The notes below the pieces were generated by a model that was given only the letters and a program-made list of their open reading frames with translations, did no database searches and had not been told where the DNA came from. Made by a program: the position numbers and the translations under genes. Of a stretch of DNA of 26,447 nucleotides, positions 752-9,541 are shown in pieces. Numbering within the stretch: the stretch's first letter is position 1; each line of letters begins with the position of its first letter. The DNA is from a virus: IMG/VR virus record IMGVR_UViG_3300034946_000371, positions 1 to 26,447 of that record. One strand, 5' to 3'.

Positions 752-800
752 GCATTAATAAAATTTTTCTGCATGTTTTTTAGAACAAAAAAGCATAAGA

Positions 801-850
801 GAGGGGGCGGTTAGACGACCTGGTTATATGCGAACCGCCCGCGCTCCCCC
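801..850. other. GC-rich dyad in the divergent intergenic region (possible cos/packaging site)
   Basis: In the otherwise AT-rich gap between the leftward and rightward genes (693-984) is a GC-rich island. GGGCGGTT at 805-812 and AACCGCCC at 833-840 form a perfect 8-bp inverted repeat around a 20-nt centre, flanked outside by GGGGG and CCCCC runs (803-807, 846-850). No T-tract follows on the plus strand; on the minus strand a T-run occurs about 12 nt past the stem, too far for a good terminator. Position just upstream of the small terminase gene, GC-rich character and symmetry would fit a cohesive-end or packaging site, but there is no direct proof. Confidence 0.35.
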
Positions 851-898
851 ACATGTATAACTTTAAGAAAAACAGCAAAACCAAAAGGGTGTAATATA

Positions 899-942
899 AA
901 AACTGTCATAAAACTGTCATAAAACTGTGATATAATTGTCAT
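899..942 (+). promoter_or_regulatory. PhoB box and -10 element (phosphate-starvation promoter)
   Basis: Four 11-bp tandem repeats run head to tail: AAAACTGTCAT (899-909), AAAACTGTCAT (910-920), AAAACTGTGAT (921-931) and ATAATTGTCAT (932-942). Positions 903-920, CTGTCATAAAACTGTCAT, match the enterobacterial Pho box consensus (two CTGTCAT repeats separated by 4 AT-rich bp). TATAAT at 931-936 starts exactly 10 bp after the box, the spacing known for PhoB-activated promoters, and there is no -35 hexamer, as expected when PhoB substitutes for it. Further half-sites extend the array to the -10. The gene at 985 follows on the same strand. Confidence 0.85.
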
Positions 943-984
943 CAATTCGAAATAATTCGAATAAGCTGAAAAAAGGAAACAACT

Positions 985-1314
985 ATGAAATTGAAAGAAA
1001 TCATCTGGGGCCCATGGCAACTTACCGCATACGTGATCGCAGGCGTCATGTTTTTCGCAACTCAAGGAGAGGCAAGCCCTTATATCGAATACAAGTACAA
1101 GTCTCTGCTCGAAGACCCTACTACAAAGACCTCTTCTTTTACACGAGTTGGATACAAGTTCTCAAAAAATTATTATATGGAAGTTGGAGATGGAAGTGCC
1201 GAAGCGGGTTATAAGTTTAAGATGGGCAATCTTACTCTCAAAGGTAAAGTCGAAAGTACAAAAGACTTTAGCAAAAATGGCGTTGAAACCGAGTTACGTT
1301 ATACTTTTAAATAA
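985..1314 (+). CDS. Small secreted outer-membrane-like (beta-rich) protein, 109 aa
   Basis: The N-terminus has lysines at 2 and 4, a hydrophobic core (AYVIAGVMFFA) and an Ala/Ser cleavage region (QGEAS, about residue 31), so export by Sec is predicted. The mature part of about 78 aa has alternating polar/aromatic strands (YIEYKYK, VGYKFS, AGYKFKMG, LTLKGKV) and ends ELRYTFK, close to the terminal-aromatic signal of outer-membrane barrels. It is short for an 8-strand barrel, so oligomers or a periplasmic beta-protein are possible. AAAAGGAAAC before the ATG is a strong ribosome site. It is the only gene behind the Pho box, so expression is predicted in phosphate-starved cells. Possible jobs (inferred): a porin-like uptake aid, receptor masking or superinfection exclusion. 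I recall similar short proteins in marine phages but cannot name a family. Confidence 0.8.
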   Translation: MKLKEIIWGPWQLTAYVIAGVMFFATQGEASPYIEYKYKSLLEDPTTKTSSFTRVGYKFSKNYYMEVGDGSAEAGYKFKMGNLTLKGKVESTKDFSKNGVETELRYTFK

Positions 1315-1319
1315 TGAGT

Positions 1320-1371
1320 GGGGTGGTTTGAGAGGATGGAAAAATAGTGCTTGACAAATCACCCCCATTTT
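1320..1371 (+). terminator. Possible terminator overlapping the next promoter
   Basis: GGGGTGGTTTG (1320-1330) pairs with CAAATCACCCC (1355-1365) over 11 bp with one G-T wobble, and the sequence after the stem is CATTTT (1366-1371). The 24-nt loop is large for an intrinsic terminator, so efficiency is doubtful. The right arm overlaps the -35 element and spacer of the terS promoter, so transcription from the Pho promoter could interfere with it. Confidence 0.4.
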
Positions 1372-1379
1372 AGTATAAT
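1351..1379 (+). promoter_or_regulatory. Perfect sigma70 promoter for the terminase operon, leaderless start
   Basis: TTGACA (1351-1356), a 17-bp spacer and TATAAT (1374-1379) match the bacterial consensus exactly. Only seven bases (CTTTCAC) separate the -10 from the ATG at 1387, so transcription should begin at or within one base of the start codon. No Shine-Dalgarno sequence can therefore be on the message. Confidence 0.88.
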
Positions 1380-7534: not shown

Positions 7535-9541
7535 ATGAACAAAATCTTTAATCTAACGTCTACTTTTAAGACTCAGACACAGGAAGATGGTTCTGTGATG
7601 ATTCGAGGGTTTGCAAGTACAGCTGATTTTGATCGTGCAGGTGATACGATTTCAGCAGAAGCTTGGCAGAAGGGTGGACTAAAGAATTTTGAGAAAAACC
7701 CAATTATTCTATTTAATCACGACTATGATAGACCAATTGGTAGAGCTACCGGGATGAAAGCAGGTCCCGACGGCCTAGAGTTAGAATGTAAGATCAGCAA
7801 AAGTGCCCCAGGCAACGTAGCTGAGCTTGTTAAAGACGGTGTTCTTGGAGCCTTTTCTGTCGGTTTCAGAGTCAAGGATGCTGATTACATTAAAGAAACC
7901 GATGGACTAATGATTAAGGACGCTGAGTTATTTGAGGTATCGGTTGTTTCCGTACCTTGCAATCAAGCAGCTACTTTTTCGCTCGCGAAGTCTTTTGACT
8001 CAGATGCTGAGTACGAAGCCTTCAAAAAAACTTTCACTAATCGTGTAGATCTAGCCGGTCAGTCTCTGGCTAAGGACGAAGATACTTCTTCAAATATAGC
8101 TAGTGACCACACACCGAAAAGCGCGGAACTTATTTCCGCAGATCAGGAGATCAAAATGGACAATCAAAACATCGACTTGGAAGCTTTTGCAAAGAAAGTA
8201 GCTGAAGATACAGCTGCTAAAATCGCAATGAAGCAAGCCGAGCAAAAAGCAGCTGACGTAGCTGAAGCCAAAGCAGTAGCTGAAGCAGAAGTATCAAAAG
8301 CAACGGCCCTCGAAGCCGAAAACATCCGCGTTAAAACTGGCGTACAAACTGGCGTTGAAGCTCTTATGGCTGACGTACAGAAGCAGCTTAACGAAAAAGA
8401 TGCAAAGTTCGAAGAAGTCATGGCCAAGCATGGTAAGGACCTCGAAGAGAAGAAAGCTGAAATCACTGCTATGCAGAACAGCAAGAAAAGCTTCGGCGAC
8501 CGTTCTGGCGCTGGCGACATTTCTAAGTTTGGTAAAGAGTTTATGACTGGCCACATGCTGGGCGTAATGACTGGCAAAGGCTGGAACACTGACTATGCTC
8601 AGGACCTAGCTCAGAAAGCTGGCGTAAACTATACTGAGAATGCTGCTGGTATTGCTCAAGGCGTTTCTACTCAAATCGAGAAAGAAATCATGCAAGAACT
8701 GAAGTTGGCCCAGGCTTTCCGTGAGATTACTATTAACTCACAGACTCAAGTACTGCCAATTCAGACTGATGCACTCCCAGCTGCTTGGGGCAATAACACT
8801 GTCGTTGGTGGTAACTTGACTAACCGCCCACAGGTTGATGCTAACCAGTACAATGCTGCTCAGGTAATCTTGAAAGCTAACCGTCTTGTTTCTACTACTT
8901 TCATGGATAATAATATCGATGAAGAAGTACTTGTAAACTTGATGCCTATGCTGATTGATTCTGTTGCTCGTGCCCACGCTCGTGCTGTAGACAACGCAAT
9001 CATCAATGGTACTTCTGGCGGCGCTGAAGGCTTTAACGGCTTGGAAGCTCTTGCTGGTACTAACAGCGTTGCTGTTCTTAACTCTACTGCTAGTGCTGAT
9101 GTTGCAGTTACTGCTGCTGAGTTCCTTGCTGGTCGTAAGTTGATGGGTAAGTATGGCATGATGCCTTCTGACCTCGTTTATGTCGTATCTCAGGCTCGTT
9201 ATTATGATCTGCTTGCTGATCCAGCTTTTGCTGACATCACTGACGTAGGTTCTGATATTGCTACTAAGATCACCGGCATGGTCGGCGCTATCTATGGCAC
9301 TCCAGTTGTTGTATCTGACCAGCTCGAAACTGAAGCCAACACTGCTTCTGTAGGCTACTGTGTTAACGTTCGTAACCACGTCATCCCACGTCTCCGCGGT
9401 GTATCTGTAGAGCAGGATTACGAAGTAATGAACCAGCGTAACGTAATTGTTGCTAGCCAGTCACTCGGCTTCAACCAGTTGCGTGCTAACAACGGCACTA
9501 CCGATGTATCGGTTGTTAAGTTGATTCGTACTGACGCTTAA
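7535..9541 (+). CDS. Prohead protease-major capsid protein fusion (HK97-like)
   Basis: 668 aa. Residues 1-165 are an S78-type prohead protease: RGFASTADFDRAGDTI, NHD (His62), GAFSVGFR (Ser108) and ELFEVSVVSVP (Glu134 region) give the catalytic set. Residues about 166-207 are a linker. Residues 212-315 form an Ala/Glu/Lys-rich coiled coil like a delta/scaffold domain, and residues 319-668 are the HK97-fold capsid protein (TLTN-type strands, VLPIQTD, SQARYYDLL, DYEVMNQRNV). In HK97 these parts are separate genes. A lysine pair at 317-318 before SFGDR is a plausible cleavage point. A strong internal start at 8156 should yield capsid precursor alone. A terminator follows immediately. Confidence 0.93.
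   Translation: MNKIFNLTSTFKTQTQEDGSVMIRGFASTADFDRAGDTISAEAWQKGGLKNFEKNPIILFNHDYDRPIGRATGMKAGPDGLELECKISKSAPGNVAELVKDGVLGAFSVGFRVKDADYIKETDGLMIKDAELFEVSVVSVPCNQAATFSLAKSFDSDAEYEAFKKTFTNRVDLAGQSLAKDEDTSSNIASDHTPKSAELISADQEIKMDNQNIDLEAFAKKVAEDTAAKIAMKQAEQKAADVAEAKAVAEAEVSKATALEAENIRVKTGVQTGVEALMADVQKQLNEKDAKFEEVMAKHGKDLEEKKAEITAMQNSKKSFGDRSGAGDISKFGKEFMTGHMLGVMTGKGWNTDYAQDLAQKAGVNYTENAAGIAQGVSTQIEKEIMQELKLAQAFREITINSQTQVLPIQTDALPAAWGNNTVVGGNLTNRPQVDANQYNAAQVILKANRLVSTTFMDNNIDEEVLVNLMPMLIDSVARAHARAVDNAIINGTSGGAEGFNGLEALAGTNSVAVLNSTASADVAVTAAEFLAGRKLMGKYGMMPSDLVYVVSQARYYDLLADPAFADITDVGSDIATKITGMVGAIYGTPVVVSDQLETEANTASVGYCVNVRNHVIPRLRGVSVEQDYEVMNQRNVIVASQSLGFNQLRANNGTTDVSVVKLIRTDA
8145..8158 (+). 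promoter_or_regulatory. Internal ribosome binding site and ATG for capsid precursor alone
   Basis: AGGAGA (8145-8150), 5 nt, then an in-frame ATG (8156-8158, Met208 of the fusion). This is better than the ribosome site of the full gene and sits exactly at the protease-linker to delta-domain boundary. Confidence 0.7.
8156..9541 (+). CDS. Capsid precursor from internal start (delta domain plus capsid), 461 aa
   Basis: Initiation at Met208 would give MDNQNIDLEAFAKKV, then the coiled-coil delta domain and the complete capsid fold, with no protease. This would supply the many capsid copies per shell while the fusion supplies the few protease copies. Same frame as the 668-aa fusion; the relative yields of the two cannot be read from sequence. 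Confidence 0.6.
   Translation: MDNQNIDLEAFAKKVAEDTAAKIAMKQAEQKAADVAEAKAVAEAEVSKATALEAENIRVKTGVQTGVEALMADVQKQLNEKDAKFEEVMAKHGKDLEEKKAEITAMQNSKKSFGDRSGAGDISKFGKEFMTGHMLGVMTGKGWNTDYAQDLAQKAGVNYTENAAGIAQGVSTQIEKEIMQELKLAQAFREITINSQTQVLPIQTDALPAAWGNNTVVGGNLTNRPQVDANQYNAAQVILKANRLVSTTFMDNNIDEEVLVNLMPMLIDSVARAHARAVDNAIINGTSGGAEGFNGLEALAGTNSVAVLNSTASADVAVTAAEFLAGRKLMGKYGMMPSDLVYVVSQARYYDLLADPAFADITDVGSDIATKITGMVGAIYGTPVVVSDQLETEANTASVGYCVNVRNHVIPRLRGVSVEQDYEVMNQRNVIVASQSLGFNQLRANNGTTDVSVVKLIRTDA

Follow-up and report, generated by a model that had tools for sequence, protein, structure and literature searches.

Among the described systems, the closest counterparts of the locus analysed here are found in cyanophages. 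The pstS gene of phage P-SSM2 is under the control of the host PhoBR system, and gel shifts with PhoB were reported on phage promoters (PMC10976474). The DUF680 family has been suggested to function in phosphate limitation and was found to be mutated, often destructively, in Synechococcus-adapted phage (PMC6224464). DUF680 genes with upstream Pho boxes were described, the DUF680 protein was present in virions (PMC9146016), and the family is enriched together with PstS at BATS (PMC3686209). The cyanobacterial Pho box follows the consensus CTTAN7CTTA (PMC3037559). According to our comparison DUF680 adjoins pstS in eight of the cyanophages examined (P-SSM2, S-SSM7, Bellamy, S-SSM5, S-E7, Syn30, S-8S53 and RB11-B), and a CTTAN7CTTA box was detected upstream of DUF680 in two of them (P-SSM2_247 and S-SSM5). 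The P-SSM2 gene g247 is said to have been named among the induced genes by Zeng and Chisholm in 2012.

The phage DNA described here (the window) is an entire IMG/VR record of 26,447 bp (IMGVR_UViG_3300034946_000371) that carries terminase, portal, protease/capsid and lambda-like tail genes. Since the closest matches of its large terminase and portal belong to T5-like phages of Vibrio and enterobacteria (approximately 49% and 40% identity, respectively), the window represents an uncultured siphovirus. T5-like head and polymerase genes were detected.

The first-pass annotation had described tandem 11-bp repeats containing a PhoB box exactly 10 bp from TATAAT, without a -35 hexamer, and had compared this geometry to that of host PhoB-activated promoters. 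All of these elements were confirmed at positions 903-942 (Table 1), where the 11-bp units form the array CTGTCAT-AAAA-CTGTCAT-AAAA-CTGTGAT-ATAA-TTGTCAT, and no TTGACA-like hexamer was found at the -35 position of the 903-936 promoter. The geometry matches that of phoA, phoB and pstS in E. coli K-12, which served as yardstick for the geometry. In E. coli the box is followed by 10 bp and TATAGT in phoA and by 10 bp and CATAAT in phoB, while 10 bp separate the -10 from the -10-proximal box in pstS; the 18-mer of the window recurs letter for letter as the distal box of pstS. Two sequence characteristics of class II PhoB promoters, namely two 7-bp CTGTCAT-type half-sites with an 11-bp period and a -10 located 10 bp 3' of the box in the absence of a -35 hexamer, were detected in the window. 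Unlike its E. coli counterparts the window promoter is phage-borne and combines a consensus TATAAT with an extended TRTGn (TGTGA-TATAAT), which had been overlooked in the first-pass annotation and would increase basal activity. As the gene for the terminase small subunit (ATG at 1387) possesses its own perfect TTGACA-17-TATAAT promoter, the Pho-type promoter appears to drive a single gene, as had been proposed. No pstS was found directly downstream of this gene, the next one being that of the terminase small subunit.

Table 1. Features of the promoter region and of the gene behind it (window coordinates).
Feature	Position	Strand	Remark
Conserved leader of the cargo slot	799-892	+	Hairpin arms 799-812/833-846, then AAAAGGGTGT at 883-892
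Pho box CTGTCATAAAACTGTCAT	903-920	+	Half-sites CTGTCAT 903-909, N4, CTGTCAT 914-920; exact match
10-bp spacer with extended -10 TRTGn (TGTGA, 926-930)	921-930	+	Overlapped by repeat unit 3, CTGTGAT (925-931)
-10 hexamer TATAAT	931-936	+	Separated from the box by exactly 10 bp
Repeat unit 4, TTGTCAT	936-942	+	Shares bases with the -10 and the presumed start region; probably non-functional as PhoB site
Ribosome-binding site AAGGAA	973-978	+	Recognised by sequence
109-aa protein, signal/TM helix and six predicted beta strands	985-1314	+	Apparently a diverged Phage_OMP/DUF680 relative
Sigma-70 promoter TTGACA-17-TATAAT of the terminase genes	1351-1379	+	Right-hand bound of the Pho-driven unit

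A chance origin of the box was ruled out. For the 18-mer with up to three mismatches, shuffled versions of the window predict 0.01 occurrences; three were observed, every one within the 903-942 array, and the strict pattern CTGTCATN4CTGTCATN10TATAAT matched three contigs in IMG/VR, all of them upstream of homologs of the 985-1314 gene. A general phage promoter was rejected as well, because each related contig contains a single box site; the other promoters of the lineage follow the consensus TTGACA-17-TATAAT. Likewise, a phage-encoded PhoB was discarded, as no OmpR/PhoB-type DNA-binding domain was found in seven related records.

A relaxed, gene-blind pattern matched 14 contigs in IMG/VR. In six of them (L024, L013, L022, L087, L088, L089) the gene behind the promoter is that of the window and in three (L082-L084) it encodes a diverged homolog, while the remainder carry genes for a secreted protein of 177-181 aa (L080, L086), a secreted protein of 91 aa (L079, L085) or, in L081, a TonB-dependent receptor of 714 aa that has both a plug and a barrel domain. 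Since window-type terminase genes are present on all eight contigs with diverged homologs or other cargo, these are assigned to the same slot of the same lineage. Slightly altered patterns matched pstS in other phages (L101, L090, L021), so that nearly the same promoter is found before pstS genes of marine phages, and the gene-blind scans of IMG/VR mostly returned either the slot in front of the terminase genes or pstS. The identity of the L101 pstS is backed by PF12849; its box is identical to the box TTGTCATAAAACTGTAAC of the homolog L036, and in L021 a three-unit array like that of the window precedes pstS. Pho-type promoters before pstS were thereby located on non-cyanobacterial phage contigs at L021:175-203 and L101:3581-3614. 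A search of 84,980 species genomes gave nine matches to the strict pattern, including pstS-like genes of Methylomonas and of an Alteromonadaceae MAG; the same architecture also precedes response-regulator genes in Lachnospiraceae.

The presence of the box upstream of homologous genes in related phages, a check proposed in the first-pass annotation, was examined in homologs that had been gathered by protein similarity alone, ignoring the box. In each of the eight homologs that occupy the slot (L007, L008, L009, L010, L011, L036, L040, L045) the sequence YTGTCAT-N4-YTGTMAY is followed after exactly 10 bp by TATAAT or, in L008, TACAAT. Of the 14 half-site columns, 10 are the same in all eight distinct promoters and four show C/T or A/C variation only; by comparison, none of 20 downstream columns and nine of the 20 A-rich columns immediately upstream are invariant. 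Of repeat unit 3 only N-T-R-T-G-N-T is kept, which corresponds to the sigma-70 extended -10; unit 4, which overlaps the -10/start region, is not conserved. The former proposal of four functional half-sites with graded activation was therefore abandoned, neither unit being conserved as CTGTCAT. The TG of the extended -10 occurs in 13 of 14 promoters, six of which had been picked by the box pattern and are independent in the TG count only. In L005 exactly one 11-bp unit, and hence one half-site, has been lost. Judged by these sequence comparisons, a host-PhoB promoter on a phage gene of envelope type appears well supported.

The assumption of a signal peptide and of beta strands in the product is likewise supported, by prediction only: the modelled structure (pLDDT 74) comprises an N-terminal helix and six strands, and fold searches returned no significant match. 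Among the relatives the N-terminus is exchanged (WGPWQL... in some, a classical MKKLIAIALLITPTLQA signal peptide in others) and the remainder of the protein is kept, which argues for export. Two homologs (L083, L102) apparently start without a signal peptide, and no lipobox was seen in the window protein. The protein scores 16.6 bits against the Pfam family Phage_OMP (PF24653), below the curated cut-off of 27, and is therefore filed as a relative rather than a member; sub-threshold matches were also obtained for 8 of 14 homologs. A profile-profile comparison with 13 cyanophage DUF680 members (PhCOG173) reached a probability of 97.7 over 99 columns, and the mature part alone scored 81 compared to at most 4.9 in 60 shuffles. 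According to these profiles the 985-1314 protein appears to be a diverged relative of the cyanophage Phage_OMP/DUF680 proteins.

The slot itself is marked by a GC-rich hairpin element and AAAAGGGTGT even where promoter and cargo differ. This leader is partly duplicated in L010 and L011; an RNA element within it was rejected, as the Rfam search of 799-892 returned no match and the folding energy is not unusual (z-score -0.9). In L132 the same slot holds an OMP homolog behind an ordinary sigma-70 promoter (TTGACA-17-TATAAT), and five further loci (L134, L138, L153, L157, L161) keep the leader with other cargo and sigma-70 promoters. The homologs L006, L038 and L042 lack the box and are situated in other operons. 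Among 80 loci selected by their terminase, 24 include no less than 1.5 kb of sequence in front of the small subunit gene and none of these contains the box (1 of 25 if L105 is counted); the sole box among the 80 is that of L105, which is the same contig as L011 and covers 0.6 kb upstream of that gene. These counts and the box-free slots led us to reject the universality of the box in the lineage, in which the Pho-promoter module is accessory. Of the earlier interpretation, the PhoB-type promoter and the secreted, envelope-type product were retained, whereas the idea of four sites was not, and envelope remodelling and dependence on PhoB appear overstated.

The cargo recorded in the slot comprises Phage_OMP-like proteins, the secreted proteins of 177-181 aa and 91 aa and a complete TonB-dependent receptor. 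We consider it somewhat favoured that the slot upstream of the terminase retains a host-PhoB promoter while its envelope cargo is exchanged, forming a modular, phosphate-gated outer-membrane tool that parallels the cyanophage DUF680-pstS arrangement with a homologous gene and the Pho box of a different host. The receptor gene (L081:181-2325, IMGVR_UViG_3300018426_002730; PF07715 plug, PF00593 barrel) lies behind a Pho-type promoter on a contig that also holds terminase, HNH and portal genes; this is a single contig and a misassembly is possible. In L142 (540-640) an OMP homolog is located behind degenerate 11-bp repeats TCTTAATCAAATCTTAAC (TCTTAAT-N4-TCTTAAC), followed by 10 bp and TATAAT; the deviating half-sites perhaps reflect a host with another PhoB specificity. 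In L053 (2677-5807, IMGVR_UViG_3300025620_000004) the OMP-like gene is separated from that of the small terminase by genes for five predicted secreted proteins in tandem and for one membrane-anchored coiled-coil-like protein; this region has its own sigma-70-type promoters and no Pfam function.

The best explanation of the locus, to which we assign a probability of about 0.7, is a class II PhoB-type promoter by which phosphate starvation would induce an exported, Phage_OMP-related protein that aids phosphate passage or envelope adaptation. The phage would transcribe with the host RNA polymerase, the 985-1314 gene alone being placed under this promoter. Phosphorylated host PhoB presumably binds the half-sites at 903-920, 10 bp upstream of the extended -10, and substitutes for the missing -35 contact. 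Given such a promoter, induction is expected once phosphate runs low in the infected cell. The small, beta-rich product would be exported, putatively to the outer membrane, and most likely aid the passage of phosphate or organophosphate across the outer envelope, or adapt this envelope in another way, while phosphate-starved cells are being infected. Phosphate-short infected cells would thus probably receive a phage-made change of their outer surface. Several points count against this explanation: the extended -10 could allow activator-independent expression, one half-site is lost in L005, the box is absent in L006, L038, L042 and L132 and rare among the terminase-selected loci, L083 and L102 seemingly have no signal peptide, the fold searches gave no significant match, and the Pfam score is below the cut-off.

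It may alternatively be argued that the extended -10 alone drives the promoter, that the repeats are remnants or are bound by a different host regulator of the OmpR family, and that expression is independent of phosphate. TRTGn and the -10 hexamer are indeed kept in all eight homology-selected promoters (TACAAT in L008), the architecture recurs before the response-regulator genes of Lachnospiraceae, and the L132 homolog is placed under a promoter of constitutive type. However, the half-site bases are conserved while the downstream flanks are not, and identical 18-mers precede pstS genes, which makes this explanation improbable. Even less credit is given to the repeats being operators of a phage-encoded regulator with a role in phage timing. 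The gene at 249-557, which neighbours the Pho-box region, matches a D5-like phage regulator family, and tandem repeats close to a divergent region would suit its product. Such a role is nevertheless hardly compatible with one site per contig, the lack of OmpR/PhoB-type domains in the seven related records, the same box preceding host and phage pstS, and the five loci that keep the leader yet use other promoters.

An explanation that leaves the PhoB switch intact concerns the product, which may block or alter a surface receptor induced by phosphate starvation (superinfection exclusion) instead of aiding uptake. The Llp protein of phage T5 acts on FhuA in superinfection exclusion. The T5-like head and polymerase genes, the small exported cargo proteins and the TonB-dependent receptor in L081 would fit a similar function here. 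Taking into account, however, the family tie to cyanophage genes that are paired with pstS, and the missing lipobox, it seems rather unlikely, and an exported protein aiding phosphate passage or envelope adaptation is preferred.

The promoter-gene unit of the window is accordingly judged to be a variant of the already known hijacking of PhoB by cyanophages. As in the cyanophage DUF680/Phage_OMP genes (for example P-SSM2 PSSM2_246-248), the product is predicted to be small, rich in beta structure and exported; the two are homologous according to their profiles and linked to phosphate, in the cyanophages via the neighbouring pstS and the Pho box in P-SSM2 and S-SSM5. In contrast to the cyanophage genes, that of the window is carried by a siphovirus with a T5-like head, behind proteobacterial-type CTGTCAT repeats instead of CTTAN7CTTA, in a single-gene unit without adjoining pstS and with a sequence below the Pfam cut-off. 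The locus also resembles the regulation of pstS and further cyanophage genes by host PhoBR (PMC10976474 and reference 13 therein, Zeng and Chisholm 2012) in that phage genes would read the phosphate signal of the host; that case, however, involves a cyanobacterial host and box and includes expression and gel shift data, whereas the window is known from its sequence. The use of the host phosphate switch, documented for cyanophages, would thereby extend to an abundant marine lineage of siphoviruses with T5-like heads. The poorly understood DUF680/Phage_OMP family would gain a second tie to phosphate by way of another type of box, and such a recurrence is not easily accounted for if the protein has no importance in phosphate-starved cells. 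If true, this phage lineage would possess a modular, phosphate-gated means of altering the outer membrane of starved hosts. One slot and promoter with varied envelope cargo and natural promoter-swap controls provide a testable set, and the part worth following is the wider pattern, in which one phosphate-type switch is combined with envelope cargo that can be exchanged and has a cyanophage cousin behind another Pho box.

The host was also sought via the TonB receptor; this search of 185 gammaproteobacterial genomes gave no match at 1e-100 and was uninformative. A match to a 'lysozyme' region of the pelagiphage Skadi (E = 10) was dropped, as it sits within a large lysozyme gene. Elsewhere in the window the head maturation protease and the major capsid protein are apparently fused in a single 668-aa reading frame (7535-9541). 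The gene at 2512-2838 encodes a 108-aa protein with an EF-hand-like stretch DINGDGIITQRE, and its DNA shares 72% identity with a hypothetical gene adjoining the tail tape measure gene of pelagiphage HTVC008M. A relative of the window phage furthermore carries a gene for a NifU-like Fe-S assembly protein (L056:1545-1925).
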